NCBI GenBank assembly: GCA_903891095.1
Contig: CAITDI010000019.1
Coordinates: 1-40,674 of the forward strand
DNA from: an uncultured bacterium
GTDB taxonomy: Bacteria; Planctomycetota; Phycisphaerae; Phycisphaerales; SM1A02
Length of the DNA stretch: 40,674 bases
Reading direction: 5' to 3'
The translations under genes and the position numbers were made by a program. Below the pieces are notes generated by a model, which was given only the letters and a program-made list of their open reading frames with translations, was not told where the DNA came from and ran no database searches. This document shows, in pieces, positions 4,446-32,560 of the stretch (positions are counted from its first letter, which is position 1; the number at the start of each line of letters is the position of its first letter).

Positions 4446-4451
4446 TAGTCT
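4446..4451 (+). promoter_or_regulatory. Candidate -10 box giving a leaderless mRNA (M14 peptidase)
   Basis: TAGTCT followed by GCGCGG and then ATG. With a normal 6-7 base distance the transcript would begin at the A of the start codon. No Shine-Dalgarno sequence is present. The same TAGTCT-GCGCGR-ATG arrangement recurs before 30824. Confidence 0.55.
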
Positions 4452-4457
4452 GCGCGG

Positions 4458-5792
4458 ATGATCTTGCGCATCACACGGCGTGCCGCTCTCGTCTCCGCGC
4501 TCGCTTCAGCGGCCTTCGCATGCGCGATCGCGCGCGCGCAGGCGCAAGGGTCGGCGACCGCAGTGGCCGCGCCGCCGGCGGCCCCCGCCGCCACCGCCGA
4601 GCTCCAGGTCCACCGCGTGTGGAAGTTCGACGAGGCGCTCGGCGCGGTCGAGTTCGACAACGACTTCAGCGGCGCGCGCGTGAACGCGTGCGAGCGCGTG
4701 GGCGCGCTCGACTACAAGATCGTCACGAGCCCCGAGAACACGCCGATCAACCCGAGCCCGTGGTACGCGTTCCGCGCGACGAGCGAGGTCGAGCGCACGA
4801 TCACGGTGCGCATCGTGGTGACGACGAGCAAGGCGCGGCCGTGGCCGTATTTCAGCGCCGACGGCAAGGCCTTTGCGCGCGTGGCGAGCGCCGACTACGA
4901 GGGCGGCGAGGGCGCCAAGGAATGCGTGCTCAAGCTGCGCGTCGGGCCAAAGCCCGTCTGGGTCGCGAGCAACCACATGATCGGCGTCGCCGAGATCGAG
5001 TCGTGGACCGACGCGACCTGCGCCAAGCTCGGCGTGGCGCCGCGTGCGATCGGCGCGTCGCGCGGCGGCCGCGCGATCCGCGCGTTCGAGTTCGGCGCGG
5101 ACGACGCGCACGACCGCATCGTGGTGATCGGCCGGCAGCATCCGCCCGAGGTTTCGGGCACGGTCGGATTCATGCGCTTTGTCGAGGCGCTCGCGGCGGC
5201 CGACGACGCGCGCGCGAAGGAGTTCCGCGCGCACTACCGCGTGCTGTGCGTGCCGCTCGTGAATCCCGACGGCGTGCACGAGGGCCAGTGGCGCAGCACG
5301 CTCGGCGCGGTCGACGCGAACCGCGACTGGGGGCCGTTCACGCAGCAGGAGACGCGCGTGGTGCGCGATGCGATCCTGGCGTTTGCGAAGACGCGCGGTG
5401 GCGACCAGTCCGATCGCGATCACGCGTCGCTGCGCCTGCTCCTCGATTTCCACGCGACGGCCAAGGACATCTTCTACATCCCGCCGCCCGAGACCGAGCT
5501 CGATCCGCCGCACTTTGCGGAGCGTTGGCTCGCAGCGATCAGCGCGCGCTTTCCCGACTACGCGCTCGACTCGAGCGCGACCAACAACGTCAAGGAATGG
5601 ACCTTCAAGCGCTGGGCGTTCGAGACGTTCGCTGCGCCCGGCATCACCTACGAACTCGGCAGCGCGACGCCGCATGAGCGGATCAAGCGCATCGTGGGCG
5701 GCGCGGCGGACGAGGCGATGAAGCTGCTGCTGGAGCGGGTGGAGGTCGGCGCGGGTGCGACGCCCGGAGTTTTGCCTGCAGCGCACAAGTAG
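4458..5792 (+). CDS. Secreted M14 zinc carboxypeptidase with cytosolic-carboxypeptidase (CCP/Nna1)-like architecture
   Basis: 444 aa with an N-terminal signal peptide (to about A29). Residues about 52-175 resemble the beta-sandwich domain found N-terminal to the catalytic domain in CCP-type M14 enzymes. The catalytic part shows Zn ligands H228 and E231 (QHPPE), the conserved NPDGV...R279..L...D.NR289.W block, the third Zn ligand H332 in LDFHATAKD, and a candidate catalytic Glu E399 in YELG. The family removes C-terminal residues; eukaryotic CCPs trim Glu side chains or tails. Here the enzyme is exported, so the substrate is an extracytoplasmic peptide, possibly cell-wall or nutrient derived (inference). 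The stop is followed by a small hairpin (5794-5808) without a T tract. Confidence 0.85.
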   Translation: MILRITRRAALVSALASAAFACAIARAQAQGSATAVAAPPAAPAATAELQVHRVWKFDEALGAVEFDNDFSGARVNACERVGALDYKIVTSPENTPINPSPWYAFRATSEVERTITVRIVVTTSKARPWPYFSADGKAFARVASADYEGGEGAKECVLKLRVGPKPVWVASNHMIGVAEIESWTDATCAKLGVAPRAIGASRGGRAIRAFEFGADDAHDRIVVIGRQHPPEVSGTVGFMRFVEALAAADDARAKEFRAHYRVLCVPLVNPDGVHEGQWRSTLGAVDANRDWGPFTQQETRVVRDAILAFAKTRGGDQSDRDHASLRLLLDFHATAKDIFYIPPPETELDPPHFAERWLAAISARFPDYALDSSATNNVKEWTFKRWAFETFAAPGITYELGSATPHERIKRIVGGAADEAMKLLLERVEVGAGATPGVLPAAHK

Positions 5793-5930
5793 TGTCCGCT
5801 GCGGACAGCACGTGTTGCACGGGGGCTGAACCGCTGCACTCTGATGCTGTCCCTTTCGGTCCCACAGGTGGCGCCTGTCCCTCTTTGCGCCGCCGCGACG
5901 CGGGCGAACGAGTACATCCACGGCATCAAG

Positions 5931-6331
5931 GCCGAGACGACGTGGGGTTCGAGAGTCCTTACACCCGCCCGTGCGGTGTGAAGTCCCGTGTGGGTGCCCG
6001 CGTGGGTGCCCGCAGGCCGGCGAGTCGAAGGGCGAGTCGGCTCGAGTTGATCGATGGCGCCGAGCCTGAGGGTGGGGGTCAGGAGACTCGGTGGGCGTGT
6101 CGGTTCAGGCAGAGATGGAGCCGAGACGACGTGGGGGTCGAGAGTCCTTACCCCCACCCTCGGTCTCGGCCGTGGCGTCGTGCCGAGTCGACACGTCTCG
6201 TGACTGGCCGGACCAAGGGCACCCGTGATTGTTCGAACCCCGTGTCGGCCGAGACGACGTGGCTTTCGAGAGTCCTTACCCCCACCCGTGATTTGTCGAA
6301 TCCCGTCTCGGCCGAGAAAAGGTGGGGGTCG
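5931..6331. repeat. Array of about seven degenerate ~63-nt tandem units
   Basis: Between the M14 gene and the sulfatase stop there is no convincing gene. Units beginning with GCCGAG start at 5931, 6059, 6120, 6182, 6248 and 6311, with a weaker one near 5990-5995; spacings are 61-66 nt or twice that. The best-conserved core is GCCGAGACGACGTGG, a variable G-run, then TCGAGAGTCCTTAC and a C-run (5931-5973, 6120-6163, 6248-6290). In the 6120 unit GTGGGGGT (6131-6138) pairs exactly with ACCCCCAC (6150-6157). The part before it (5793-5930) is not obviously repetitive. The whole unit varies, unlike CRISPR. Function unknown; it may be a folded RNA, a terminator or attenuator, or a mobile repeat. Confidence 0.75.
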
Positions 6332-6341
6332 CGGCGTGACT

Positions 6342-7823
6342 TCACTTCGCTTGTGACTTGAACCGCGCGAGGTCGGCGCGCATGTCGGCGACGCGCTGCG
6401 CGTTGGCGGGGTCGGCGGCCACGTCGTGCTCCTCGCGCGGGTCATGTGCGAGGTCGAACAGCTGCTCGACACCCCAATCGGGCCACGAGATGTACTTCCA
6501 CTCGCGCGTGACGACGGCCTCGGACGCGGGAATGAAATCGCGGCTCGTCAGCATCGCATGCTCGTACAAGAACTCGCGCCGCCACGCCGGCGGATCGCTC
6601 GCGAGATACAGCGGCGCGATGTCGCGCCCCTGCATCCCCGCAGGCGCCGCGACGCTCGCCGCGGCGAGGATCGTCGGCGCGAGATCGACATTGAGCGTGA
6701 GCGCGTCGTCGGTCGTGCCGCGCCGCGCGGCCGGCATGCGCGGATCCCACACGATCAGCGGCACGCGGATCGACTCCTCGTACGGGTACCACTTGTCGGC
6801 CAGGCCGTGCTCGCCGTGGAAGTAGCCGTTGTCCGTCGTAAAGATCACCAGCGTCCGGTCGAGCACGCCCTGCGTGCGCAGCTCGTCGAGCACGCGGCCG
6901 CAGGTCGCGTCGACTTCGGTCGCGAGGCGGTAGTAGTTCTTCATGTACTCCTGGTAGCGCTCGGGCGTGTCGAAGCGCCAGGTCCAGCGGTTGCGGCCCT
7001 CATTTCGGGCGTTCGCGAGGAACGGCGGCAGCGCGCGGAACGCCGCGTCGGTCGCCGTCGCCGGCACAGGCACCGTCACATCGCGGTAGAGCGACATGCT
7101 CTCGGGCTGCGGGAGGTACTGCTGCTTGTTGCCGTCCTCGGCGTGCGTGGCGAAGAACGCGACCGTCAGGCAGAACGGCTTGTCCGCGGGCCGCGCGCGG
7201 AGGAAGTCGATCGCGTCGCGCTCGTTCTTCTGCGTGACGTGGATGCGCGTGCCGTCGGGCTGCGTGATCCAATGCGTGCCGTTCGCGAGCGCCGACGCGG
7301 GCGAGTCGTACTCCGTCGCGGGAAACTTGCCGTTGTGCCACTTGCCGACGTGGCCGACCCAGTAGCCGTGCGCGCGCAGCTGCGCGGGGAACGTCTCGCT
7401 CCACGGCGTCCTGAACATGTCGAACGCGCGGTTGCCATGGCGCGACATCCACTGCCCCGTGAGCATGGTCGCGCGGCTCACGCCGCAGATCGAGGTCGTG
7501 ACGGAGTTGTGCGTGAAGCGCACGCCGTCGCGCGCGAGTGCGTCGAGCCGCGGCGTCTGCACGACGGGGTTGCCCGCGCAACCGAGCGTGTCGAAGCGCC
7601 AGTCGTCGGCGTAGAGGAGGAGGATGTTCAGAGGTGCGGGGTTCAGAGGTTCGGGGTTCAAGGGTGCGGGATTGAGGGGTGCGGGATTGAGAGGTGCCGC
7701 ACCGACGGCCGCGCGACCAGCCGGCTTCGCGCCCCCGCTCGCGCAGCTCGCGACGAGCATCGCGGCCAGCATGCCCAACGCGACACGGAGAACCAGGGAG
7801 ACGTTCTTCACGATCGCGAACAT
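6342..7823 (-). CDS. Lipoprotein sulfatase (S1 family)
   Basis: 493 aa. The N-terminus is a lipoprotein signal with lipobox VASC (C27), followed by a proline-rich PLNPA repeat linker (residues 43-66), so the enzyme is probably membrane-anchored in the periplasm. Sulfatase features in order: metal ligands in YADDW (D73, D74), formylglycine motif C113-G-V-S-R117 then ATMLTG, GKWHNG, and TTDNG followed by GEHGLADKW. The +2 position of the formylglycine motif is Val, not the usual Pro. The protein hydrolyses a sulfate ester; the substrate (for example a sulfated glycan or choline-O-sulfate-like compound) cannot be assigned. It runs into the 63-nt array at its 3' end and is divergent from the K+ channel gene with 53 bases between starts. 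Confidence 0.9.
7627..7701 (-). repeat. 5 x 15-nt tandem repeat coding for a PLNPA linker
   Basis: Five 15-nt units start at 7627, 7642, 7657, 7672 and 7687. They encode P-L-N-P-A/E units between the lipid anchor and the sulfatase domain. The period keeps the frame, so copy-number change would alter only linker length. Confidence 0.85.
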
Positions 7824-7860
7824 ACCACCAGCGCGCGCGAGCCTCGATGCCGCGCGTTCC

Positions 7861-7869
7861 TGCTAGGCT
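7861..7869 (+). promoter_or_regulatory. Extended -10 (TGC-TAGGCT) of the K+ channel gene
   Basis: TGC followed by TAGGCT (7864-7869), then 7 bases, then the GTG start at 7877. This predicts a leaderless or near-leaderless transcript. No Shine-Dalgarno sequence is present. Confidence 0.5.
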
Positions 7870-7876
7870 CGACGGC

Positions 7877-8644
7877 GTGAGACAGCTGCAGATCCCCACC
7901 GACCCCTGGAAGTGGTTCAAGAACCGCACGCTGCCGCTGCTGGTCGCGCTCATCGCGCTGATCGGGCTGCACCCGCTGCTGGTCGACGAGATGGGCAACA
8001 CGGGCCCGCTCTTTCCGCTGGCGATCGCGGCGATCCCGCTGCTCGGAATCGTGGTGCTCAACGGCTGGCGGCGCGCGGTGCCGATGCTCGCGATCTTCGC
8101 TGCGCTGGTGCTGCTCGCGACGCTGGTCTACGGCGCCAACTCCAACGAGATCGCCAAGAGCCCGCTCGAGCTGCTCGCGTTCGTGTACTACGCGTACTCG
8201 ATCGTCACGATCGGCAGCACGCTGCTCAAGAGCACGGCGGTGCTCGACGACCGCGTGTACGGCGGACTGACGGTGTTCCTGCTGACGGCGTGCATGTTCG
8301 CCACGCTGCACCGCCATGTGTCGGCGGTGGACCCGAACGCGTACTGGTCGTCGGTCGACGACAAGTCGATGCTGCTCGACTGGGACGACGCGCTGTACTT
8401 CTCGATGGCGTCGATCACGACCGTGGGCTTTGGCGACATCGTGCCGCGGTCGTCGTGGGCGCGCGCGGTGACGATGGTCGAGTGCGCGTCGGGCGTGTTC
8501 GTGACGGTGGTGTTCATCGCGCGGCTGGCGTCGGTGGCGCAGGGACAGGGGCAAGGACAGGGGCAAGGACAGGGGCAAGGACAGGGGCAAGGACAGGCGC
8601 AATCGCAAGCGCCGTCACAGCCCAAGCCGCACGCGCACGGATAG
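7877..8644 (+). CDS. Two-TM-pore type potassium channel protein
   Basis: 255 aa from a GTG start; this start places the N-terminal amphipathic segment directly after the promoter-like hexamer and avoids overlap with the divergent sulfatase. Five hydrophobic segments precede the pore: roughly residues 20-36, 43-60, 64-83, 92-115 and 125-140. The pore helix and selectivity filter are SITTVGFGDIVP, with the canonical TVGFG, followed by the last membrane helix. This is the Ion_trans_2 arrangement with extra N-terminal helices. There is no RCK/TrkA-N domain; the C-terminal tail is a Gly-Gln repeat and a Pro/His/Gln-rich end. Role: K+ conductance across the inner membrane. It converges with the YHYH gene. 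Confidence 0.88.
   Translation: MRQLQIPTDPWKWFKNRTLPLLVALIALIGLHPLLVDEMGNTGPLFPLAIAAIPLLGIVVLNGWRRAVPMLAIFAALVLLATLVYGANSNEIAKSPLELLAFVYYAYSIVTIGSTLLKSTAVLDDRVYGGLTVFLLTACMFATLHRHVSAVDPNAYWSSVDDKSMLLDWDDALYFSMASITTVGFGDIVPRSSWARAVTMVECASGVFVTVVFIARLASVAQGQGQGQGQGQGQGQGQGQAQSQAPSQPKPHAHG
8543..8602 (+). repeat. 5 x 12-nt tandem repeat coding for a Gly-Gln tail
   Basis: Four exact units GGACAGGGGCAA start at 8543, 8555, 8567 and 8579, plus one variant at 8591. They encode (GQ)n in the cytoplasmic tail of the channel. The exact identity of four copies points to recent expansion. Confidence 0.9.
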
Positions 8645-8665
8645 CGCGCGGACCGCAGCGAACTG

Positions 8666-11161: not shown

Positions 11162-11185
11162 GGTTGGCGCCTCAGTCGGCGACCC

Positions 11186-11194
11186 AACGTAGCA
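11186..11194 (-). promoter_or_regulatory. Extended -10 (TGC-TACGTT) of the YHYH gene
   Basis: On the minus strand TGCTACGTT lies 24 bases before the ATG. Unlike the leaderless candidates this gene has a leader with a Shine-Dalgarno GAGG. Confidence 0.45.
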
Positions 11195-11366
11195 CTGCCT
11201 CTGCATGATGCGGGCAATCAAATCGATTCGGCGGAATCGGAGAGCGTCACGCGTCCGATACCGCCCCTCCATCAGGGAGGCGCTGCGGGATCGTGACCTC
11301 GGCAGCAGGCACGCGTCGAGAGGCACCAGCCGACGACGCCCGCACTGCCTGCGCCGAGTGCTCGAC

Positions 11367-11375
11367 TGCTACCCT
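11367..11375 (+). promoter_or_regulatory. Extended -10 (TGC-TACCCT) of the PKS operon
   Basis: TGC followed by TACCCT (11370-11375), 16 bases before the chosen ATG at 11392. It would give a leader of about 9-10 bases. It helps decide the start, since an upstream ATG at 11293 would lie before the promoter. Confidence 0.4.
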
Positions 11376-11391
11376 TGCCGTCGCGAATCCC

Positions 11392-12096
11392 ATGCGCACC
11401 CGCGTCCGCGTACCAGAACTCATGGACGACCCCGCGCTCGACGCGGCGGCGCACGATCACGCGCTCGCGGGGCTTGCGCGGCTGAATGCGTGGTCACGCA
11501 GCCATCGTCTGCTCTGGAGCGGCATCGCGCGACAGGCGCGCGCGGTGAACGCGACGGGCCGCGCGCTACGCGTGGTCGACATCGCGACCGGTTCGGCCGA
11601 TGCGCCCGTCGCGATGGCCGCGCGGGCGCGACGCGAGGGGCTGCGCATCGACTGGACGCTGTGCGACGCGAGCTCGCACGCGCTCGAGGTCGCCGCGGAA
11701 CGCGCGCATGCAGCAGGCGTCGTGGCGACGACGCTCGAGGCCAACGCGGTCGCCGCGCCGCTTCCATGCGAGGGCGATGTCGTGATCTGCTCGCTCTTCC
11801 TGCATCACTGCGACCCGGACGACGCCACGCGCGTGCTGGCGCACATGGCCGCTGCGGCCACACGCGCGGTCGGGGTCACCGACCTCGACCGCACGCGCCA
11901 GGGGCTGGCGCTCGCGTGGATCGGGTCGCGGGCGCTGAGCCGTTCGCCCATCGTGCACTTCGACGCGCTCGCGAGCGTGCGTGCGGCGTTCACGCGCGAC
12001 GAGATCGCGGCGATCGCGCGTGCGGCGGGACTCGCGGAAGTTTCCGTGCGGGCCGCGTGGCCCGCACGCTGGACGCTGTGGTGGAGCCGCGCATGA
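11392..12096 (+). CDS. Class I SAM-dependent methyltransferase of the type III PKS operon
   Basis: 234 aa from the ATG at 11392. An in-frame ATG at 11293 is possible but would add a non-conserved-looking tail that spans the likely promoter. SAM-binding motif I is VVDIATGSADAP (61-72); an acidic residue follows the second strand (DWTLCDAS), and a post-motif strand VVICSLFLHHC is typical of UbiE-like small-molecule methyltransferases. It overlaps the next gene by the ATGA tetranucleotide, so translation is coupled. By analogy with bacterial type III PKS clusters (for example Streptomyces srsABC, which makes methylated phenolic lipids), it probably methylates the alkylresorcinol, alkylpyrone or quinone product; the substrate is inference. 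Confidence 0.85.
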   Translation: MRTRVRVPELMDDPALDAAAHDHALAGLARLNAWSRSHRLLWSGIARQARAVNATGRALRVVDIATGSADAPVAMAARARREGLRIDWTLCDASSHALEVAAERAHAAGVVATTLEANAVAAPLPCEGDVVICSLFLHHCDPDDATRVLAHMAAAATRAVGVTDLDRTRQGLALAWIGSRALSRSPIVHFDALASVRAAFTRDEIAAIARAAGLAEVSVRAAWPARWTLWWSRA

Positions 12097-13226
12097 CGGA
12101 CGCCATCAGCGACACCCCGCGCGACCTCGCGCATCGCGACATCATCGTGATCGGCGCGGGACCGGCCGGATCGTGCGCGGCGATCGCGGCTGCGCGCGCG
12201 GGCGCGCGCGTGATGCTCGTCGAACGCGCGGCGATGCCGCGTGCGAAGGTCTGCGGATGCTGCCTCGCCGCATCGGGTGTCGCGGCGCTTGAGCAGGCGG
12301 GCGCGGCCGAGGTGCTTGCGGGCGCCGTGCCGCTGCGCGCCATCCGCGTGACCAGCGGCGCGCGCGCGATGACCCTGCGGCGCGAGGCAGGCGTTGCGAT
12401 CGCGCGCGAGACGCTCGACGCGCGCCTGGCGGATTTCGCGCGGCGCGCTGGCGTCGAAGTGCGGCTCGAGACCTCTGCCCGCGTCGCCGCGGACCGCGCC
12501 GTGCGGCTGACGCACGGCGAGCGCACCGAGCTGTTGCGCGCCCGGACCGTCATCGTCGCCGATGGCCTGCAGGGCGGCGCGCTCGACGATGTGCCGGGAT
12601 TCGAGTGGAGCATCGCCCGGCGCAGCGCGATGGGCTTTGGCGCGGTGCTTCCGCCTGCTGCGCTCGAGTGCCCGATCGGCGAGATCGCGATGCATGTCGG
12701 CCGCGACGGATACATCGGCGTCGTCCGCCTTGCGTCGGGGGAGCTCGATGTCGCGGCGGCCGTGCGGCCCTCGGCGCTCAAGCGCGCGGGGAGCGTCGCC
12801 GCGTGCGCGCGCGAGCTCCTTGCGGGCGTTCCGCACGACGCGCGCGCGATCGACGGCGCGCGCTGGCGCGGCACGCCGCAGCTCACGCGCACCCGCGCCC
12901 GGCTTGCGGACCGCGGGATTCTGGTCGCGGGCGACGCGGGCGGCTACATCGAGCCGTTCACTGGCGAAGGCATGTCGTGGGCGATCGCGACGGGACTGGC
13001 CGCGGGCACGCTTGCGGCGCGCGACGCCGACGCGCACCTCGACGCCCATCTCGCGTGGCCGCGCATGCACGCGGCGCTCGTCGCGCGGCCAAAGTGGCGC
13101 TGCAGCGTGATCGCCGCGGTGCTGCGAAGTCCCGCGCTCGTGCGCGCCGCCCTCGCGATCGGTTCGCGCGCGCCGAGGCCATTCGAAGAGCTCGCCGCGC
13201 GGCTCGAGGGAGCGGCGACGCGATGA
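12093..13226 (+). CDS. FAD-dependent oxidoreductase, geranylgeranyl reductase/FixC-like
   Basis: 377 aa. The Rossmann motif GAGPAG (21-26) binds FAD, with the ribose-binding Glu in VMLVERA. A downstream FAD motif GDAGGYIEPFTGEGM is near residues 280-294. The size and the GD-x-G-x-x-x-P-x-x-GEG block match the geranylgeranyl-reductase/p-hydroxybenzoate hydroxylase superfamily. In PKS operons such flavoproteins hydroxylate or reduce the lipid product; which one applies cannot be told here. It overlaps both neighbours by ATGA (start 12093, end 13226), the mark of a tightly coupled three-gene operon. Confidence 0.87.
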   Translation: MTDAISDTPRDLAHRDIIVIGAGPAGSCAAIAAARAGARVMLVERAAMPRAKVCGCCLAASGVAALEQAGAAEVLAGAVPLRAIRVTSGARAMTLRREAGVAIARETLDARLADFARRAGVEVRLETSARVAADRAVRLTHGERTELLRARTVIVADGLQGGALDDVPGFEWSIARRSAMGFGAVLPPAALECPIGEIAMHVGRDGYIGVVRLASGELDVAAAVRPSALKRAGSVAACARELLAGVPHDARAIDGARWRGTPQLTRTRARLADRGILVAGDAGGYIEPFTGEGMSWAIATGLAAGTLAARDADAHLDAHLAWPRMHAALVARPKWRCSVIAAVLRSPALVRAALAIGSRAPRPFEELAARLEGAATR

Positions 13227-14284
13227 GCTCGAACACGGCCCGCATCGTGTCGATCGGAACGGCGACTCCGTCCGCGCGCCTCCCGCGCGACGCGTGGCTC
13301 ACGCTCGCGGGGCAGATCGCGCCATCCGACGTCAGCCGTGCGCTGCTCGCGCGCCTGGCCGATCGCAGCGAGATCGACGGGCGCGCGGCGGCGGCCGTGG
13401 ATCCGCCGCTCTACTCCGCGGGCACCGTCCCGGGAACCGCCGCGCGCATGCAGCTCTGGTCGCGCACGGCGCGCGCGATGGCCCACGACGCCTGCGCCGC
13501 GGCCATCGCCGATGCGCAGATCGAGCCGCGCGCGATCACGCATGTCGTCACTGCGTCGTGCACGGGATTCGAATCGCCAGGCGTCGATGCCCACCTGATC
13601 GAATCGCTCGGGCTCGCGCGCGGCGTTGCCCGCACGAACATCGGGTTCATGGGCTGCCACGCCGCGGTGAACGCGCTCGCGGCGGCGCGCAACGCGGCGA
13701 TCGCGGATCCAGCCGCGCAGGTCCTCGTCTGCTGCGCGGAGGTCTGCTCGGCGCACTTTCACCACTCGGCGCGCGTCGACCAGCTCGTCGCCAACACGCT
13801 CTTTGGCGACGGAGCCGCGGCGGCGATCGTGCGCGGCGGCGCGCACGGCCACGATGACGCAGCGCCCGCGCTCGCCGCGACGCATTCGGTGCTGCTCGCG
13901 GATACCGCAGACGAGATGCGCTGGACGATCGGGGACCACGGCTTCGAGATGACGCTGGGCGCGCGCGTGCCCGACGTGCTCCGCGCCGAGGTCGGCGCGT
14001 GGGTCGCGTCCTCGCTCGCGACGCACGGGCTCGCGATCGGCGACGTCGGCGCGTGGGCGATCCATCCCGGTGGTCCGCGCGTGATCGACTCGGTGGTCGC
14101 ATCCCTCGGCATCCCCGCGGAGGCGGGTGACGCCAGCCGCGCGGTGCTCCGCGCCCACGGAAACATGTCGAGCGCGACGCTGCTCTTCATCCTCGATCGG
14201 CTGCGGAAATCGCGCGCGCCGCGGCCATGGGTCGGGCTCGCGTTCGGGCCGGGCCTCGTCGGCGAGATGGTGCTGGTGCGCTGA
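13223..14284 (+). CDS. Type III polyketide synthase (chalcone/stilbene synthase family)
   Basis: 353 aa, the normal family length. The catalytic triad is visible: C145 in GFMGCHAAVN, H281 in AWAIHPGGPR, and N314 in RAHGNMSSATL. The FGDGAAAAIV block and the C-terminal GLAFGPGL loop (the GFGPG motif of the family) are present. The enzyme condenses malonyl-CoA units on a starter acyl-CoA and cyclises the chain. With a fatty starter, an alkylresorcinol or alkylpyrone would be made, then methylated and oxidised by the two preceding gene products (inference). It starts inside the previous gene with ATGA overlap and converges with the Nudix gene; no terminator is visible in the 8-base gap. Confidence 0.93.
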   Translation: MSSNTARIVSIGTATPSARLPRDAWLTLAGQIAPSDVSRALLARLADRSEIDGRAAAAVDPPLYSAGTVPGTAARMQLWSRTARAMAHDACAAAIADAQIEPRAITHVVTASCTGFESPGVDAHLIESLGLARGVARTNIGFMGCHAAVNALAAARNAAIADPAAQVLVCCAEVCSAHFHHSARVDQLVANTLFGDGAAAAIVRGGAHGHDDAAPALAATHSVLLADTADEMRWTIGDHGFEMTLGARVPDVLRAEVGAWVASSLATHGLAIGDVGAWAIHPGGPRVIDSVVASLGIPAEAGDASRAVLRAHGNMSSATLLFILDRLRKSRAPRPWVGLAFGPGLVGEMVLVR

Positions 14285-14292
14285 CGCGCGCC

Positions 14293-14745: not shown

Positions 14746-14755
14746 GGAGACCGAC

Positions 14756-14761
14756 AGCGTA
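14756..14761 (-). promoter_or_regulatory. Candidate -10 box of the Nudix gene
   Basis: TACGCT on the minus strand, 10 bases before the ATG, predicts a leader of only 3-4 bases. Confidence 0.35.
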
Positions 14762-14786
14762 AACGCTCGCGGCCGCGCGCACCGCG

Positions 14787-15905
14787 TCAGCCGACCGTGC
14801 CCCACGCGTTGAGCACCGCCGCGAGATCGCCGCCGCCGACCGTGCCGTCGCCGTCGACATCCTCGGGGCCGTGGCCTTCGCCCCACTCGTTGAGGATGCG
14901 CGCGAGATCGATCGCGTCGACCTCGCCGCTGCAGTCGATGTCGGCCGCGAGCGGGCAGTGCGCGGCGAGCGAGGCGTTGTAGAAGTCCCAGTTCGCCTGA
15001 CCGAGCGCGTTGAGCACGAGCTGCGGCGAGTGGCCGAGCCCCGGAATCACCGTGAAAGAGTGCGGAATCCCCAGCTTGCCCAGATGCGCGTCGAACTGCT
15101 GGTTCATCGGCAGCAGCGAGTCGAGGTCGCCGAGGGCCATGCGCACATGCGTCTGCGCGGCGAGCACAGCGGACGCGCGGTCGGCGACGATCGTCCACGG
15201 ATGCTGCGCGAGGAAATACGCGGGATCGCTGCCCCACACCTGCGCGTAGATCTGCTTGCGCAGCGCGGGCGGCGTGGTCGAGTTGTCGGGCGCAGTGAGG
15301 AAGTCGAGCTGGATCGGACCCGCGCCGAGCATCGACACTCCGCAGAAGAGGTCGGGCCTGCGGAATCCGAGCCGACCCGCGCCCTGCCCGCCCATGCTGA
15401 AACCGTCGACGATGCGGCCGCTGCGGCGCGCGATGGTCCTGAACGTCGCGTCGATGTGCGGGATGAGGTCGTCGAGCACGACGGACTCCATCGGCACCGT
15501 GCCGTTCTTCGAGTCGCACCACATGCTGTACTGCATGCCGTTGGGAAACACGACGAGCATCGGCGGGATGCGGCCCTGCGCCATCGCGGTGCCGAAGAAG
15601 TTCGCAAGCGACGGGATGCCGACCGTGCCGTCGCCCGATCCGTGCAGCCAGTAGAGCACGGGAAACCGCGCGGTCGGGTTCGCCTCGTACTGCGGCGGAA
15701 CATAGGCGTGGAAGCTGACCGTCGCGCCCGCCGCGGCGCTGTGGAACGTGAGGTACTGCACGCCAGGCGCGCTCACCGGCGCAGTGACCCACTGCGCGCG
15801 CGCGGCGGACGCCGAGAACACCGCAAAGGACGCGAGCACGAAGGCCTGGAAAGCGCGGAGGATGGAACGGTTCGATCTCATAGCGGTAGTCGGGGTCTTC
15901 GTCAT
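14787..15905 (-). CDS. Secreted alpha/beta-hydrolase esterase with dockerin-like C-terminus
   Basis: 372 aa. The ATG at 15905 is chosen because AAGG lies about 8 bases upstream; an ATG eight codons later (15881) lacks any such site. The signal peptide ends at ARAQ (about residue 38). The fold matches the esterase D/feruloyl esterase (PF00756-like) family: LHGSGDG oxyanion region, nucleophile S170 in GFSMGG, acid D260 or D262 in GDLD, and H292 in PGLGHSPQ. Residues about 318-372 form two EF-hand-like loops with DL..(I/V)LN.WG ends, a dockerin-like pair. Likely a secreted carboxylesterase acting on acylated polysaccharide or small esters (inference). Confidence 0.9.
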   Translation of the reverse strand: MTKTPTTAMRSNRSILRAFQAFVLASFAVFSASAARAQWVTAPVSAPGVQYLTFHSAAAGATVSFHAYVPPQYEANPTARFPVLYWLHGSGDGTVGIPSLANFFGTAMAQGRIPPMLVVFPNGMQYSMWCDSKNGTVPMESVVLDDLIPHIDATFRTIARRSGRIVDGFSMGGQGAGRLGFRRPDLFCGVSMLGAGPIQLDFLTAPDNSTTPPALRKQIYAQVWGSDPAYFLAQHPWTIVADRASAVLAAQTHVRMALGDLDSLLPMNQQFDAHLGKLGIPHSFTVIPGLGHSPQLVLNALGQANWDFYNASLAAHCPLAADIDCSGEVDAIDLARILNEWGEGHGPEDVDGDGTVGGGDLAAVLNAWGTVG

Positions 15906-16074: not shown

Positions 16075-16080
16075 TAGGAT
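16075..16080 (+). promoter_or_regulatory. Candidate -10 box giving a leaderless mRNA (transglutaminase-like gene)
   Basis: TAGGAT is followed by 7 bases and the ATG at 16088. There is no Shine-Dalgarno sequence. The divergent spacer 15906-16074 holds no gene. Confidence 0.5.
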
Positions 16081-18199: not shown

Positions 18200-18200
18200 G

Positions 18201-21545: not shown

Positions 21546-21674
21546 GGCGTTGCCTCTGTGACCTCCGCAGCCTTCGCGCCCGATGCGGAAGGCCTTGGCG
21601 GATGTCGTGTTTCGTGGCCGTCATCATGGGCGCCGCCGCACGGGCGATCTGCGGGGAAAGTGACCTGCGCGGCA

Positions 21675-21905: not shown

Positions 21906-21921
21906 GGCATTTGCGCGGATT

Positions 21922-21930
21922 TGCTAGCAT
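21922..21930 (+). promoter_or_regulatory. Extended -10 (TGC-TAGCAT) of the deoxyhypusine-synthase-like gene
   Basis: TGC followed by TAGCAT (21925-21930), then 10 bases, then the ATG. It predicts a leader of about 3-4 bases, with no Shine-Dalgarno site. Confidence 0.5.
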
Positions 21931-21940
21931 CCCGCCCCTT

Positions 21941-22993
21941 ATGGCCACGCAGCAGCTTCCTATTCTCGAGTTCGTCGCCCGCAACTACAAGAACTTCAAC
22001 GCCCGCGCCACGCGCGACGCGCTGTTTGCGTACTGGGATCACGTCAACTCGGGCGGCAAGATGTACTGGGCCGTCGCGGGCGCGATGAGCTCCGCGCAGC
22101 TCGGCATCACGCTCGCGCCGGCCATCCGCGCGGGCCTCGTGCACGGTCTCTCGGTCACGGGCGCGAACCTCGAGGAGTCGCTCTTCCGCCTCGTCGCGCA
22201 CGAGTCGTACAAGGACTTCCCCGACTACCGCTACTTCACCAAGGAACACGACACGAAGATCCTCAAGCAGCGCATGCGCCGCGTGACGGACACGAGCATT
22301 CCCGAGGACGAGGCGTTCCGCGCCGTCGAGAAGATCCTCGTCCCGATGTGGGAGAAGGCGACGAAGAACGGCGACCGCCGCTTCTGGCACGAGTACTTCT
22401 ACGACCTGATCCTCTCGATCCCGAAGTCGAAGTACGAAGGCAACCCCGACGACTGCTGGCTGCTCGCGGCCGCGAAGGCCAAGCTCCCGATGGTCGTGCC
22501 CGGCCACGAGGACTCGACCTTCGGCAACATCTTTGCGTCGCATGTGAAGTTCAACGACTGCAGCGCGTCGATCGTCAAGAGCGGCATCGAGTACATGGCG
22601 AACCTGTACGACGACTACAAGAAGCTCTCGACCGGCAAGGGCGTCGGCTTCTTCCAGATCGGCGGCGGCATCGCGGGCGACTTCCCGATCTGCGTCGTGC
22701 CGAGCATCAAGTACGACCTGCAGGAGAAGGTCCGTCCGTGGGCGTACTTCTGCCAGATCAGCGACTCGACCACGAGCTACGGCTCGTACTCGGGCGCCAC
22801 GCCCAACGAGAAGATCACCTGGGACAAGCTCACCGAGGACACGCCGATGTTCGTCGTCGAGAGCGACGCCACGATCGTCGCGCCGATGATGCTCTCCGCG
22901 CTCCTCGAGGCGAAGGCCAACCCGAAGGCCGCCGACGCGATCATCAAGGCATCGCGCGCGGAGACGAAGAAGCACGTCGCCAAGATGCGGTAA
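21941..22993 (+). CDS. Deoxyhypusine synthase-like protein (probable homospermidine synthase type)
   Basis: 350 aa; the ATG at 21941 is the first after the promoter-like hexamer and starts a conserved-looking chain. The core matches the deoxyhypusine synthase family: VHGLSVTGANLEE near the NAD site, PGHEDSTFGN, GGGIAGDFPICVVP, and the spermidine-binding end SGATPNEKITWDKL, in which K296 aligns with the catalytic Lys of eukaryotic DHS (SGA.PDEA.SWGK). Bacteria lack the eIF5A substrate; bacterial homologues are described as making homospermidine from putrescine or spermidine. That role is the best guess here. It is not in an operon: the sulfatase upstream is divergent and the gene downstream is convergent. 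Confidence 0.88.
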   Translation: MATQQLPILEFVARNYKNFNARATRDALFAYWDHVNSGGKMYWAVAGAMSSAQLGITLAPAIRAGLVHGLSVTGANLEESLFRLVAHESYKDFPDYRYFTKEHDTKILKQRMRRVTDTSIPEDEAFRAVEKILVPMWEKATKNGDRRFWHEYFYDLILSIPKSKYEGNPDDCWLLAAAKAKLPMVVPGHEDSTFGNIFASHVKFNDCSASIVKSGIEYMANLYDDYKKLSTGKGVGFFQIGGGIAGDFPICVVPSIKYDLQEKVRPWAYFCQISDSTTSYGSYSGATPNEKITWDKLTEDTPMFVVESDATIVAPMMLSALLEAKANPKAADAIIKASRAETKKHVAKMR

Positions 22994-23060
22994 GCCCTGA
23001 TGCGGTGAGACCACGCGCGGTGAGGCCACGCGCGGTGAGGCCGTGATGCGATAAGCCGCG
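22985..23060. repeat. 5 x 15-nt tandem repeat starting inside the last codons of the upstream gene
   Basis: Units start at 22985, 23000, 23015, 23030 and about 23045. The first unit (ATGCGGTAAGCCCTG) contains the final Met-Arg-stop of the deoxyhypusine-synthase-like gene; later copies are variants such as GCGCGGTGAGGCCAC. It fills the gap to the convergent sulfatase stop (23069). Confidence 0.8.
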
Positions 23061-23068
23061 CGCGCCGC

Positions 23069-25882: not shown

Positions 25883-25980
25883 GGAGCGACGACCTTTTCA
25901 AAGCTGAGCAAGGAGGGACGCGATCGGAAGGACCGTGCAATATGCAATCGAACTGCGGGATTCCCAGCATGATCCGTGCG

Positions 25981-26055
25981 AAAGGCAGATAAGAGCGAGG
26001 CAGACACGAGAGAGGCAGACAAGCACGAGGCAGACAAGCGAGACGAAGACAACGC
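25981..26055. repeat. 5 x 15-nt tandem repeat in the divergent sulfatase promoter region
   Basis: Units start at 25981, 25996, 26011, 26026 and 26041, with consensus near CGAGGCAGACAAGCG. They lie about 100 bases upstream of the minus-strand sulfatase start. In the remaining intergenic DNA (25883-26522) I see only the inverted repeats listed separately and no convincing gene. Confidence 0.82.
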
Positions 26056-26339
26056 TCCAGATCGAACGCAGTGGTCGCAATCGCGGAGGACGCGCTGGGC
26101 GAGCACGCGCAGCAACTCCCAGGTCACGCGGCTGGCGGTGCTGCTGGGCGCCCGAAGGCGACGAGGAACTCGGCTTCAGTGCGGTCCGATCAAAGCCCTA
26201 CCGCGCCGGGCGCATAACGACAACCGTCGCGAATGCGCTGGGGTCGGCAGCCTCGGACTCTCGCGGCGCCATCCTTCACCCAATTCCTTACACCTTCGGG
26301 CGCGCAGTCAGGCGTTCTTCGACCGCAGCAACACTCCAA

Positions 26340-26362
26340 AATCGGTTCAGGTTGGACCGATT
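26340..26362. promoter_or_regulatory. Inverted repeat, possible operator between divergent sulfatase genes
   Basis: AATCGGT (26340-26346) is repeated inverted as ACCGATT (26356-26362), separated by 9 bases. Size and position fit a dimeric regulator site, but no regulator gene is nearby. Confidence 0.35.
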
Positions 26363-26411
26363 CTCGGAAGGCCGCTTGCCTGAGCGCGGACTCGGGTCAC
26401 TCTGTCTGATC

Positions 26412-26429
26412 GCGGGGTGAGGACCCCGC
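26412..26429. promoter_or_regulatory. Hairpin upstream of the dockerin sulfatase
   Basis: GCGGGGT (26412-26418) pairs perfectly with ACCCCGC (26423-26429) around a GAGG loop. There is no T tract. It is about 94 bases before the ATG, so it may be in the leader or mark the end of another transcript. Confidence 0.35.
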
Positions 26430-26522
26430 ACTTCCAGGGGCTCGTCGTCTTTCGGCCTGGCGCAATGCGCTTCGGCTTGGGCGCACGCACTCGTCTACTC
26501 GTCCAGATCCGGATCCACACAG

Positions 26523-28820: not shown

Positions 28821-28983
28821 CGCGGCGGATTGACTTCCGTACGCGGCGTCGAGCTCGATGCGGCACTCGCATCGATGCTTGCGGCGGCGCTGAGCGCGTC
28901 GTACTGACGCGCGTGTTGGTTCCGTTTCGCGCCTGAATGGCGCGCCGTAGGGACTCGAGGCACTCGCGTCGATTTCAATCAGG

Positions 28984-28989
28984 TAGATT
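28984..28989 (+). promoter_or_regulatory. Candidate -10 box giving a leaderless mRNA (carbonic anhydrase)
   Basis: TAGATT, then 7 bases, then ATG at 28997. There is no Shine-Dalgarno sequence. The preceding gap (28821-28983) contains a 7-bp hairpin (28894-28912) without a T tract and no gene. Confidence 0.5.
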
Positions 28990-28996
28990 TCGGCGC

Positions 28997-29704
28997 ATGA
29001 TGACGAATCTCCAACTCCGCCGCGTCGCAAGCATTGCTCTCTCGATCGCCCTCGCGGCCTGCGCATCCACTGGCACGCGCAACACCACGAGCAACACCAC
29101 GAGCACGGTCTCGACCACCATCGAGCCCGCACAGGCGCTCCAGGAACTCAAGGCCGGCAACGCCCGCTACGTCGCAGGGAATGTCCGCATGCACGACTGG
29201 CGCCACGAGCGCACCGTGAAGACGGGCTCCGACGGCCAGACGCCGTCGATCGGCGTGCTCACCTGCGCCGACTCGCGCACTCCGCCCGAGATGATCTTCG
29301 ACCAGGGCATCGGCTCGCTCTTCGTCGTGCGCATCGCGGGCAACTTCCAGAACGATGTCGGCGTGGGAACCTTCGAGTACGGCGTCGCCGCGCTCGGCGT
29401 GCACACGATCGTCGTGATGGGCCACACCAAGTGCGGCGCGGTCGGCGCGACCGTCGCGGGCAAGGAACTCCCGGGCAAGATGGGCGCGTTCGTCGCGGCC
29501 ATCAAGCCCGCACTCGCCGACGCGCCCAAGGGCGCGGACGGAAAGACCAGCACCGCCGATGCCGAGATCGCCAACGTGCGCTGGCAGGCGGGCCAGCTCC
29601 TCAAGAACAGCGAGATCCTGAGCAAGGCCAAGGCCGACGGCAAGCTCGCCGTACTCTGCGCGATCTACGACGTCGAGACTGGCGCCGTGCGCTTCCTCGA
29701 CTGA
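28997..29704 (+). CDS. Lipoprotein beta-class carbonic anhydrase
   Basis: 235 aa. The ATG at 28997 (an ATGATG pair) directly follows the promoter hexamer and starts a lipoprotein signal with lipobox LAAC (C22), then a Thr/Ser/Asn-rich linker. The beta-carbonic anhydrase zinc ligands are C90, H143 and C146 (TCADSR and MGHTKCGA), with the D92/R94 dyad. The enzyme interconverts CO2 and bicarbonate; the lipid anchor places it outside the cytoplasm, which would let it supply or trap inorganic carbon at the membrane. It is followed by a strong terminator, so it is a single-gene unit. Confidence 0.92.
   Translation: MMTNLQLRRVASIALSIALAACASTGTRNTTSNTTSTVSTTIEPAQALQELKAGNARYVAGNVRMHDWRHERTVKTGSDGQTPSIGVLTCADSRTPPEMIFDQGIGSLFVVRIAGNFQNDVGVGTFEYGVAALGVHTIVVMGHTKCGAVGATVAGKELPGKMGAFVAAIKPALADAPKGADGKTSTADAEIANVRWQAGQLLKNSEILSKAKADGKLAVLCAIYDVETGAVRFLD
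29081..29104 (+). repeat. 2 x 12-nt tandem repeat in the lipoprotein linker
   Basis: AACACCACGAGC occurs twice (29081-29092, 29093-29104), encoding N-T-T-S twice just after the lipobox Cys. Confidence 0.7.
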
Positions 29705-29737
29705 TCGAGCAAGCGCGAGAGACCAGGCAACGACACG

Positions 29738-29774
29738 GGCCTGTTCCGCCAGCGCGGAGCAGGCCTCTTTCGTT
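29738..29774 (+). terminator. Rho-independent terminator after carbonic anhydrase
   Basis: A 12-bp stem (29738-29749 with 29754-29765, one G-U), loop CAGC, is followed by TCTTTCGTT. An outer CAACGA/TCGTTG pair extends it. Confidence 0.8.
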
Positions 29775-29785
29775 GCGGCGCGGAG

Positions 29786-29791
29786 TATCGT
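29786..29791 (+). promoter_or_regulatory. Candidate -10 box giving a leaderless mRNA (PqqB-like)
   Basis: TATCGT, then 6 bases, then ATG at 29798, immediately downstream of the carbonic anhydrase terminator. No Shine-Dalgarno sequence is present. Confidence 0.5.
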
Positions 29792-29797
29792 GCGTCC

Positions 29798-30814
29798 ATG
29801 TTCATGACCAAGCTGATGTCGATGCACGCTGCGCGCACGTACCTCGCTGCACTGTCGATGTGCCTCGCCGGCTGCACGACCGCGGGCTCGCCGACCGCGC
29901 GCGCGCAAGTCCCCGCAGGCGGACCGTCGCTGGTCGTGCTCGGCATCGCGCAGGACGGCGGTGTTCCGCAGGCGGGCAGCTTTGGCGATCCGCGCTGGGA
30001 CGACGCGTCGCGCGCGCACGAGGTCGTCTCGCTCGGCATCGTCGATCCGCGCAGCGGCAAGCGCTGGATGATCGATGCGACGCCTGACTTCCGCAGGCAA
30101 TCGCTCGAGCTCTATCGCGCGTCGCGCGGCGCACCGAAGCCGGTCGTCGACGGGATCTTCCTCACGCACGCGCACATGGGCCACTACACGGGGCTGATGT
30201 TCCTCGGCCACGAGTCGATCGGCGCGAAGTCGCTGCCCGTGTACGCGATGCCGCGCATGGCGGAATTCCTGCGGACAAACGGCCCGTGGAGCCAGCTCGT
30301 CAAGTACGACAACATCGCGCTCATGCCGCTCGCGGCGGGCGAGCCCGTGCGGCTCGCCGACGACCTCACGGTCACGCCGATCACGGTGCCGCATCGCCAG
30401 GAGTTCAGCGAGGTCGTCGCGTTTCGGATCGCGGGGCCCGCGCGCTCGGCGCTGTGGCTCCCCGACATCGACTCGTGGGAGGAGTGGGACCGCCAGGGCA
30501 CGCGCTTCGAGGGCGTGCTGCGCACCGTCGACATCGCGTACATCGACGCGACGTTCTTCGCGAACGGCGAGATCCCCGGCCGCGACATGACGGGCTTCCC
30601 GCATCCGTTCGTCTCGCACACGATCGAGCGGCTTTCCGCGCTGCCCGCCGAGGAGCGCGCGAAGATCCGCTTCATCCACTTCAACCACTCGAATCCCGCG
30701 CTCGATCCCGCGAGTGCGGCGCGCGCGGCGATCCGCGACGCGGGCATGCAGGTGGCCGACGAAGGCGAGGTCGAGACGCTCTTCGCCTACGAACGCCCGC
30801 GTTGGATGCGCTAG
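29798..30814 (+). CDS. Lipoprotein metallo-beta-lactamase-fold protein, PqqB-like
   Basis: 338 aa with lipobox LAGC (C26), so probably membrane-attached outside the cytoplasm. The MBL-fold region starts with PSLVVLGIAQDGGVPQ, and the metal motif is H124-A-H126-M-G-H129 in FLTHAHMGHYTGL, closely like PqqB (LTH...GHYTGL). The usual Asp of HxHxDH is Gly here, so the second metal site is probably altered. Later elements ALWLPDIDSW, DIAYIDATFF and FIHFNHSNP fit the family. No other pqq genes are nearby, so a PQQ role is not supported; a hydrolase of unknown substrate is safer. The stop TAG overlaps the putative promoter of the next gene. Confidence 0.83.
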   Translation: MFMTKLMSMHAARTYLAALSMCLAGCTTAGSPTARAQVPAGGPSLVVLGIAQDGGVPQAGSFGDPRWDDASRAHEVVSLGIVDPRSGKRWMIDATPDFRRQSLELYRASRGAPKPVVDGIFLTHAHMGHYTGLMFLGHESIGAKSLPVYAMPRMAEFLRTNGPWSQLVKYDNIALMPLAAGEPVRLADDLTVTPITVPHRQEFSEVVAFRIAGPARSALWLPDIDSWEEWDRQGTRFEGVLRTVDIAYIDATFFANGEIPGRDMTGFPHPFVSHTIERLSALPAEERAKIRFIHFNHSNPALDPASAARAAIRDAGMQVADEGEVETLFAYERPRWMR

Positions 30815-30817
30815 TCT
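30812..30817 (+). promoter_or_regulatory. Candidate -10 box overlapping a stop codon (GT39-like gene)
   Basis: TAGTCT begins with the TAG stop of the PqqB-like gene; GCGCGA and then ATG (30824) follow. It matches the arrangement before 4458 and predicts a leaderless transcript. Confidence 0.5.
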
Positions 30818-30823
30818 GCGCGA

Positions 30824-32560
30824 ATGCAGGCAAACGAAGCGAGCACGCGCACTGGACTCCGACGCAGCGACTACGCGATCGCGGTGGCGATCGCCGCGGT
30901 GACCTTCGGGCTGCGGCTGATGTTCCTCTTCAGCGGACCCGACCACGCGTGGCCGCACTCCGCGCTCTACGAAGGCGACGCGCCGACATGGGCGCGCTGG
31001 GCCAAGTCGCTCGCGGTCGGCGAGGCGTTCGAGTTCGACCTGCCGTTCCGCACGCCGGGCGTGGCGTGGATGCTGCACTTCCTGCACATGGGTCTGCACA
31101 TGGACGCGGCGCCGTACACCTCGGCCAAGATCCTGTGGTGCGCGATGTCGGCGGCGACGGGCGCGGCGCTCTATCTCGTGCTCGCGCGGTGGTTCACGCG
31201 GCGCGCGGGCTTGATCGCGACGACGCTGTTTGCCCTGAGTTTTGGCTCGTTTGCGCTCGCGACCTCGCTCAACAACGAGACGCCGTACGCGCTGCTCGTG
31301 GTGGGGATCATCGGCGCGACGCTGGCGTGGATCGATCGCCCGAAGCTGTGGATTGCGGTCGCGCTCGGCGCGATGCACGCGATCGCGATGCTCATGCGCG
31401 CGGAGCACATGCTGCTCCTCGCGATGCTGCTCGGGTACGGCGCGTGGCGCATGCGCGGCGCGGGGCCCGCGCGCGTCGCCACGCAGTGCGCGGTGCTCGT
31501 CGCCACGATGCTCGCGGTCTGCGCGCCGTGGACGCTGCGCGGTCACGCTGCTGCGCATCGCTTTAACACGGAGCCCCTGCAGGAGATCCCGTACGACGCA
31601 GCCAAGCCGCCGTGGACGCCCGCGGCGATCGCGGCGTTTGAATCGCTGCCGGCCTACGCGCGCGCGAGCAACTACGCGTTTCTCAGCGACATCGGCCGGC
31701 GCGCGGGCGTGCAGTCGATCGACGTGCAGGATGTCCAGCGCTTCTTCGCCAAGGAATGGGGCTCGACGCCCGAGCCGATCTCCGAGTGGTCGCTGATCTC
31801 GATCAAGGGCCCGCTGGATTTCGCGCTCGCGAACCAGCCCGCGAGCGACGGCGGCTTCACGCGCAGCGGACTGAGCGACACGCACGGCGTCAATCCGCCG
31901 TTCTCGTTCGCGCGGCCGACGCACGCGAACCTGCTGGTCCACGGCTACGAGATCGGCCTCGCGTCGATCCGCTCCGATCCCACGCGCTGGCTCGGGCAGG
32001 TCGGCGAGAAACTGCTGCGTTTTCAGGACGGCGCGACGGTCGGGCTCTTTGCGAGCGACTGGCCGTACACGCAGCATCTCCTCCGTCGGCCCGTCGATGT
32101 GGCGGTCCCGCTGCGCTGGAACGCGATCGGCTGGCTCGTGCTCGTGCTCGGCTCGCTCGCCGCAGGCGTGGTGGTCGCGTGCCGCCGGCCCGGCGGACTG
32201 ATCCTGCTCGTGGTCGTCGCGTACAAGCTCGCGGTCACGGTCGCGTTCTACGGCTACGCGCGGCAGGCGATGTCGATCTCGCCGGTGCTGTTTGCGCTGT
32301 CGGCGCTCGCGGTCGACGCGGCGTGCATCGCCATCGCCAGGCGCGTGACCCTCAAGCCCGACGCGGTATTCGGCCTGCGGATGGCGACGGGAATCATGGT
32401 CGCAGCGGCGGTTGCGTTCGCGGCCTTCGAGGCGTGGAACCCCCCGCTCCTCGTGATCAAGTCGCTGCAGCCGACGCCGAGCATCACGCCGCAGCCCGAA
32501 TGGGGCGAAGGCGCGTTCGAGACGATGGACACGCTGGCGTTCATGCCGCACACGAAATAG
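30824..32560 (+). CDS. Polytopic membrane protein, GT39/ArnT-like glycosyltransferase
   Basis: 578 aa with about ten hydrophobic helices. The first membrane segment is followed by an acidic/Trp-rich luminal loop (GPDHAWPHSALYEGDAPTWARWA), the position of the catalytic Asp loop in the GT-C glycosyltransferase superfamily (dolichyl-phosphate-mannose protein mannosyltransferase/ArnT). Helices follow at about 90-110, 120-200 and 220-240; a soluble segment (about 240-395) is followed by a second membrane block (about 420-530). Such enzymes move a sugar from a polyprenyl-phosphate to lipid or protein outside the inner membrane. The exact acceptor is unknown. Confidence 0.72.
   Translation: MQANEASTRTGLRRSDYAIAVAIAAVTFGLRLMFLFSGPDHAWPHSALYEGDAPTWARWAKSLAVGEAFEFDLPFRTPGVAWMLHFLHMGLHMDAAPYTSAKILWCAMSAATGAALYLVLARWFTRRAGLIATTLFALSFGSFALATSLNNETPYALLVVGIIGATLAWIDRPKLWIAVALGAMHAIAMLMRAEHMLLLAMLLGYGAWRMRGAGPARVATQCAVLVATMLAVCAPWTLRGHAAAHRFNTEPLQEIPYDAAKPPWTPAAIAAFESLPAYARASNYAFLSDIGRRAGVQSIDVQDVQRFFAKEWGSTPEPISEWSLISIKGPLDFALANQPASDGGFTRSGLSDTHGVNPPFSFARPTHANLLVHGYEIGLASIRSDPTRWLGQVGEKLLRFQDGATVGLFASDWPYTQHLLRRPVDVAVPLRWNAIGWLVLVLGSLAAGVVVACRRPGGLILLVVVAYKLAVTVAFYGYARQAMSISPVLFALSALAVDAACIAIARRVTLKPDAVFGLRMATGIMVAAAVAFAAFEAWNPPLLVIKSLQPTPSITPQPEWGEGAFETMDTLAFMPHTK

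Follow-up and report, generated by a model that had tools for sequence, protein, structure and literature searches.

TANNNT hexamers abutting start codons point to leaderless promoters in a Phycisphaerales genome

Where does transcription begin when a promoter-like hexamer lies almost against the start codon? The question is raised by a contig of 40,674 nucleotides (nt) from an uncultured bacterium of the order Phycisphaerales in the phylum Planctomycetota (GenBank assembly GCA_903891095.1, contig CAITDI010000019.1), hereafter the window (contig C19 in our numbering). An initial annotation, made from the letters alone, had noticed genes with a TANNNT hexamer ending 6-7 or 9-10 nt before the start codon, and had proposed that the tightly spaced hexamers are -10 elements that place the transcription start at or next to the start codon. 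All nine hexamers that it claimed were read from the sequence at the positions it gave (Table 1). Our analysis supports the proposal through a genome-wide spacing peak, avoidance of operon-internal positions, conservation of the spacing in one gene and exclusion of purines ahead of the start codon. The hexamers are very probably the -10 elements of leaderless promoters of the housekeeping sigma factor, set against the coding sequence; we infer the sigma factor, the transcript ends and the mode of translation.

The genome comprises 3.6 Mb in 131 contigs, with ∼69% guanine plus cytosine (GC). We define the gap as the number of nt between the end of TANNNT and the start codon, and +n as the nth nt after the hexamer. 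The sample consisted of the window and 55 further stretches, 947 kb in all, in which genes were called from codon usage alone, blind to upstream signals, using ten window genes as seeds (nine with Pfam matches). Seeding the caller on the longest open reading frames was dropped because, at this high GC content, it often selected antisense frames, and the results of that run were not used. The caller returned 740 genes, of which 719 had 60 nt of upstream DNA. TANNNT stood at gaps 6, 7, 8, 9, 10 and 11 in 56, 27, 10, 20, 12 and 5 of these, over a background of 1.8 per gap (mean of gaps 14-49). When 64 XYNNNZ patterns were ranked over 14 gaps in an earlier subset of 418 genes, the first to be called, TANNNT at gap 6 came out on top. 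Counts that need no gene calls agreed: the whole genome contains 161 copies of GNTANNNT-N6-ATG and 20 of the same pattern at N12 spacing. The N12 spacing, which keeps the reading frame, was preferred as a control to the reversed pattern, which gave 35 matches in this genome. A genome-wide TANNNT peak before starts, on which the initial annotation had staked its proposal beforehand, is thus present. The excess at gaps 6-10 corresponds to ∼116 of the 719 genes (16%) by called starts and to ∼150 genes (21%) when any candidate start is admitted, the latter being an upper estimate, since the same gene may be scored twice, at different gaps. In the window, 5 of 27 blindly called genes had the hexamer at gap 6-7 (0.14 expected; Poisson P(≥5) = 4e-7) and 3 had it at gap 8-11. 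Start-adjacent hexamers are a real, genome-wide feature of about one gene in six.

The position of the hexamers relative to neighbouring genes follows gene context. A gap 6-7 hexamer preceded 39 of the 204 genes with a divergent neighbour and 1 of the 95 genes that overlap the preceding gene on the same strand; with a same-strand neighbour at 1-30, 31-80 and >80 nt the counts were 14/93, 15/96 and 10/184, and with an unknown neighbour 4/47. The contrast between overlapping genes and all other known contexts (1/95 vs 78/577) has a Fisher p of 9e-5. Shine-Dalgarno sites, scored as AGGA, GGAG or GAGG at -17 to -4, showed the following distribution: they were scored in 59 of the 95 overlapping genes, and in 8 of the 83 genes with a gap 6-7 hexamer vs 207 of the remaining 636. 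In 6 of those 8, every match overlaps the hexamer itself. Across the 418-gene subset, 130 genes had a site, compared with 40 in a shifted control region. Because the 16S gene keeps an intact anti-Shine-Dalgarno sequence, leaderless and Shine-Dalgarno modes can coexist. Within the window, the upstream sequence of gene 11161 bears out the claim that this gene has a Shine-Dalgarno-like site and lacks a tight hexamer. The companion claim, that the tight genes have no Shine-Dalgarno site, holds broadly but not strictly: GGAG lies directly before the 29798 hexamer, and the AGGA at gene 16088 falls within the hexamer.

Alignment of the 83 sites on the hexamer showed C at -15 and G at -14 in 57% each, and no -35-like conservation at -52 to -16, as judged by eye and with no spacer-flexible motif search made. 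The pair directly ahead of the hexamer was CG in 28 genes (34%, background 15%) and TG in 9 (11%, background 5%). The TG-extended form that the initial annotation had singled out is therefore enriched about two-fold but represents a minority, and CG, likewise enriched about two-fold, is the commonest pair. All three of the TGC extensions that it listed exist; the hexamer behind the one at 11367 (11370-11375) is not tight, as the nearest in-line ATG, at 11392, lies 16 nt away.

Conservation of the spacing was clearest for gene 29798. The best relative of its protein is 79% identical and comes from a Planctomycetota bacterium; the others are from Phycisphaerales, with a few titled Chitinophaga or Verrucomicrobiota. 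Within the order we fetched 29 orthologues, 28 of them usable, and found TANNNT at gap 6 in 12 and at gap 7 in none, compared with a mean of 1.9 and a maximum of 5 for other pairs of adjacent gaps. The middle bases of these hexamers vary (TATCTT, TAGACT, TATGCT, TAGGCT, TACGCT and others). Among the 15 closest named records (14 usable), the hexamer stood at gap 6 or 7 in 12 loci vs a mean of 0.67 and a maximum of 2, a count tempered by the fact that these 12 loci represent 10 distinct sites and are not all independent (the upstream letters are identical in L142 and L093, and in L151, L152 and L154). In 65 more distant named records (63 usable), gap 6-7 was occupied in 9 vs 4.6 on average and 11 at most, which is background. 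The protein of gene 30824 was matched in just 9 of 121 genomes of the order, mostly weakly, and the gene is therefore of little use for conservation; of its three clear orthologues, L084 has TACCAT-N6-ATG, L086 has TACCCT-N5-ATG and L085 has no hexamer. With its near absence inside operons, and with a spacing that the orthologues of gene 29798 retain, the hexamer behaves as a promoter.

The bases between hexamer and start codon bear on where such a promoter would initiate. In genes with gaps of 7-11, purines were found at +7, +8 and +9 in 14% of 74, 11% of 47 and 8% of 37 genes, compared with expectations of 41%, 40% and 38%, derived from motif-free genes at equal distance from the start (p = 3e-7, 9e-6 and 1e-4). 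There was no such drop at +3, +5 or +6. A pure pyrimidine bridge from +7 to the start codon occurred in 23 of 32 genes with gap 9-10 (5.6 expected), and in the whole genome the gap-9 hexamer ended in YYY-ATG 31 times and in RRR-ATG 0 times (Y, pyrimidine; R, purine). An error of one codon in calling the start cannot yield the gap-9 YYY bridge, since the start codons used contain a G. The avoidance of purines from +7 up to the start codon suggests that the first base of the start codon is the transcription start. The genes that the initial annotation had placed at 9-10 nt do carry their hexamers and, by virtue of the bridge, look leaderless too.

We propose that an RNA polymerase of the SigA/RpoD type would recognise TANNNT, often with G at -14 and without a -35 element, open the DNA and initiate at the first purine at least 7 nt past the hexamer. 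That purine would be the first base, A or G, of the start codon, giving a leaderless messenger RNA (mRNA); at gaps 7-10 the extra positions, mostly pyrimidines, would keep initiation at the start codon. Translation would begin at the 5'-terminal AUG or GUG without Shine-Dalgarno pairing, and the overlapping, operon-internal genes would be mostly Shine-Dalgarno-led. We lean narrowly towards the more specific claim that, in one planctomycete family, the start codon acts as the transcription initiator and gaps of 6-10 are tolerated because the stretch from +7 to the start is nearly free of purines. The pyrimidine-bridged class would then be a lineage-specific extension of the 6-7 nt leaderless promoter.

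Several observations weigh against this account. The purine drop was not significant at +10 (24% of 17) or +11 (2/5), and purines were also low at +1, +2 and +4 (43%, 30% and 38% vs 57%, 54% and 49%; p = 5e-8 at +2). Hexamers far from a start (gap 16-49, n = 64) gave intermediate values of 33% and 30% purines at +7 and +8. Spacer composition may therefore account for part of the effect. At gene 16088 an A immediately precedes the start codon, which allows a 1-nt leader. Purine exclusion was absent in a Deinococcus plasmid control (7/14 purines at +7). Among seven relatives it was at most suggestive in two genomes (G087, 2/13 at +7 and 0/6 at +8; G124, 1/7 at +7), and a third was contrary (G034, 4/5 purines at +7). 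Finally, some starts are misplaced by the caller: in an E. coli control 33 of 42 matched the annotation exactly, and in the window the caller chose 4563 for the sixth gap 6-7 gene, whose start at 4458 is likelier because translation from that upstream position gives what looks, by eye, like a signal peptide.

Some of these points would be explained if the -10 elements were real and initiation were fixed 7 nt downstream, which would leave leaders of 1-4 nt at gaps 7-10. Bacterial polymerases commonly start 7-8 nt past the -10 element, and the A at -1 of gene 16088, the Deinococcus control and the pyrimidine preference elsewhere in the spacer all speak for such short leaders. On the other hand, bacterial transcripts mostly start with purines, and a fixed start would fall on a purine at +7 in just 14% of the 74 genes; the genome-wide excess of YYY over RRR at gap 9 points the same way. 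We regard short leaders as unlikely.

Less probable still is that the leaderless transcripts are secondary, the main transcripts being leadered and starting further upstream. Several promoters per gene are common in bacteria; however, Shine-Dalgarno sites are depleted in the hexamer genes, and the spacing is conserved in the orthologues of gene 29798. We hold it very improbable that the hexamer is no promoter at all but a translation signal, such as an A/T-rich site for the ribosome or protein S1, although S1 binding has been offered as an alternative cause of the A/T bias before starts in bacteria, Planctomycetes included (PMC5397173, in the text available). Operon-internal genes should use such a signal too, and 1 of 95 overlapping genes has it; moreover, fixed T1, A2 and T6 around a variable middle, with G at -14, form a promoter signature, and a pyrimidine bridge is in keeping with a start of transcription. 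An artefact arising from stop codons, from base composition or from the way starts are called, in which TA would stem from TAG or TAA stops and the peak from compact gene order, has next to no credibility: TAN coincides with the upstream gene's stop codon in 3 of the 83 genes (at 30812, the TAG doubles as the stop of the preceding gene), but the rate peaks in divergent pairs, which have no preceding stop on the same strand, TANNNT at gap 6 tops all patterns and gaps, and the ATG-anchored counts at N6 and N12, free of gene calls, are far from equal.

We next consider how widely the feature occurs in Planctomycetota. Among 61 genomes of the order, the excess of gap 6 over gap 12 was significant in 47 (Bonferroni 0.01) and the ratio was below 1.2 in 4. 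Among 199 genomes of the phylum, 80 were significant, 83 had a ratio of at least 2 and 69 a ratio below 1.2; the four genomes from other orders of the same class all fell below 1.2. The ratio correlated negatively with the number of background matches, taken as a stand-in for A+T content (Spearman -0.82). Low ratios thus occur mostly where background matches are many and the test has little power, and are no proof of absence in A+T-rich genomes. Genes were also called in seven relatives, and for four of them an earlier, smaller query set gave agreeing gap counts. The peak lay at gap 6 in G136 (8/94) and G124 (12/100), and G249 had 2/28 genes at that gap. In G034 (L053-L062) it lay at gap 5 (13/169, with 8 at gap 6), and in G087 (L043-L052) gaps 5-8 held 5, 4, 7 and 5 of 162 genes, so the gap-6 pattern undercounts these two genomes, whose peaks span gaps 5-6 and 5-8. 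This difference between genera, seen against the 6-7 nt of the window genome, might reflect a different spacing preference of the polymerase. Gene calling revealed no peak in G057 (40% GC) or G024 (50% GC). Overlapping genes lacked the gap 5-7 motif in G087 (0/13), G034 (0/19), G136 (0/7) and G124 (0/4). G136 (L222-L228), of the same order and with 73% GC, combines a leaderless peak with Shine-Dalgarno sites in 11 of 94 genes vs 18 in the control region. The bridge was more restricted: in 16 genomes of the window's own family the gap-9 counts were 290 YYY vs 42 RRR (reversed-pattern control, 126 vs 74), and in five other families the YYY/RRR ratio ranged from 0.2 to 1.6.

The promoters described here are of a known kind, as in Mycobacterium and Deinococcus, with little recorded for Planctomycetota as far as our literature search reaches. 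The sources cited below were consulted in part, and likenesses and differences refer to their available text. In Deinococcus-Thermus, Zhong et al. (2025; PMC12340547) described TANNNT ∼6-7 bp before the open reading frame with T1, A2 and T6 nearly invariant. Tight TANNNT, inferred leaderless mRNA, conservation among homologues and coexisting Shine-Dalgarno genes are common to that group and the present genome. The hexamer's function was tested experimentally in Deinococcus and is predicted here from sequence, and the share of genes is nearly one third in D. radiodurans vs 16-21% here (PMC12340547). Our pipeline recovered the peak from Deinococcus plasmids (300 kb, 232 genes; 12 genes at gap 6 and 7 at gap 7, background 1.15) with few genes at gaps 9 and 10 (3 and 1) and, in these small numbers, no purine exclusion, whereas both the wider gaps and the exclusion are present here. 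E. coli (50 kb, 42 genes) gave 2, 0 and 3 genes at gaps 5, 6 and 7 over a background of 0.6.

In Mycobacterium tuberculosis, Cortes et al. (2013; PMC3898074) mapped the transcript starts, 85% of which were purines. The SigA promoters of that species have TANNNT and no -35 element, as here. CGN is commoner than TGN there, and our 83 sites have 28 CGN and 9 TGN, each about two-fold over its background. A preference for purine starts, most often preceded by C at -1, would also be common to both. Starts were mapped in M. tuberculosis and are predicted here, and the pyrimidine bridge is without mention in the available part of that paper. In 207 of 953 bacterial genomes, Zheng et al. (2011; PMC3160421) detected genes headed by TANNNT, with the same signal and inference at ∼12 bp before the start, and with TAnnnT of uninformative middle bases in high-GC genomes, like here. 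Planctomycetes are not in that paper's list of groups with leaderless genes, and 'planctomycet' appears nowhere in its indexed text. Nakagawa et al. (2017; PMC5397173) reported a bias in Planctomycetes from one genome and linked it to leaderless mRNA and/or S1; there the two mechanisms were not separated and no motif was given. In the text available, two further papers bring up Planctomycetes in connection with Shine-Dalgarno use or the spacing of genes (PMC6728339, 2019; PMC2784483, 2009), and another lists Phycisphaerae among anti-Shine-Dalgarno types (PMC10783764, 2024). Among the titles and abstracts listed in a search whose coverage leaves subscription journals and preprints outside, none dealt with leaderless promoters of planctomycetes. 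The pyrimidine bridge may be a new and perhaps family-specific variant.

Table 1. Candidate -10 hexamers in the window, with one Shine-Dalgarno-type upstream region for contrast
Feature	Coordinates	Strand	Gap (nt)	Start	Gene product or remark
-10 hexamer TACGCT	3315..3320	+	9	3330	bases 7-9 = TCC (pyrimidine bridge)
-10 hexamer TAGTCT	4446..4451	+	6	4458	zinc carboxypeptidase-like, Peptidase_M14 (Pfam)
-10 hexamer TAGGCT, TGC ahead	7864..7869	+	7	7877 (GTG)	Ion_trans_2 channel (Pfam)
Upstream of gene 11161 (contrast)	11162..11185	-		11161	Shine-Dalgarno-like GAGG, no adjacent hexamer
-10 hexamer TACGCT	14756..14761	-	10	14745	NUDIX; bases 7-10 = CTCC (pyrimidine bridge)
-10 hexamer TAGGAT	16075..16080	+	7	16088	703 amino acids, no Pfam match
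-10 hexamer TAGCAT, TGC ahead	21925..21930	+	10	21941	bases 7-10 = CCTT (pyrimidine bridge)
-10 hexamer TAGATT	28984..28989	+	7	28997	carbonic anhydrase, Pro_CA (Pfam)
-10 hexamer TATCGT	29786..29791	+	6	29798	Lactamase_B_2 fold (Pfam)
-10 hexamer TAGTCT	30812..30817	+	6	30824	PMT_2 family (Pfam)

The genes starting at 3330, 16088, 28997 and 29798 open with N termini that resemble signal peptides or lipoprotein signal peptides when read by eye, and gene 16088 is divergent from the gene at 15905. Gene 21941-22993, behind a gap-10 pyrimidine-bridged hexamer, encodes a deoxyhypusine-synthase-like protein (DS, PF01916) in a bacterium. Dockerin domains and sulfatases are found among the window proteins (Pfam), in line with an assignment to Planctomycetota. 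Positions 5934-6330, which lie between the genes that end at 5792 and 6342, hold three copies of a repeat with cores GAGACGACGTGG and CGAGAGTCCTTAC; the exact cores were not found elsewhere in the 947 kb sampled. At 11392-14284, three frames in overlapping order appear, as a guess from their translations, to encode methyltransferase-, FAD-oxidoreductase- and type III polyketide-synthase-like proteins. The run at 32625-39167 encodes Fer4_20/Pyr_redox, DHO_dh-type (with 4Fe-4S domains), CN_hydrolase, Amidohydro_1 and Aldedh proteins, some of them overlapping, which we take to resemble reductive pyrimidine catabolism; an adjacent -10 hexamer precedes none of its five genes.

Overall, strong sequence evidence places Planctomycetota with the other bacteria whose leaderless genes are served by start-adjacent -10 promoters, and the uneven distribution among the tested genomes would make gains and losses traceable. 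Annotation easily misplaces the start codons of leaderless genes, as reported for Deinococcus (PMC12340547, in the text available), and planctomycete annotation would gain from knowing the rule that ties the -10 element to the start codon. If true, the pyrimidine bridge would provide a testable rule, readable from DNA alone, that separates zero-leader from short-leader promoters.

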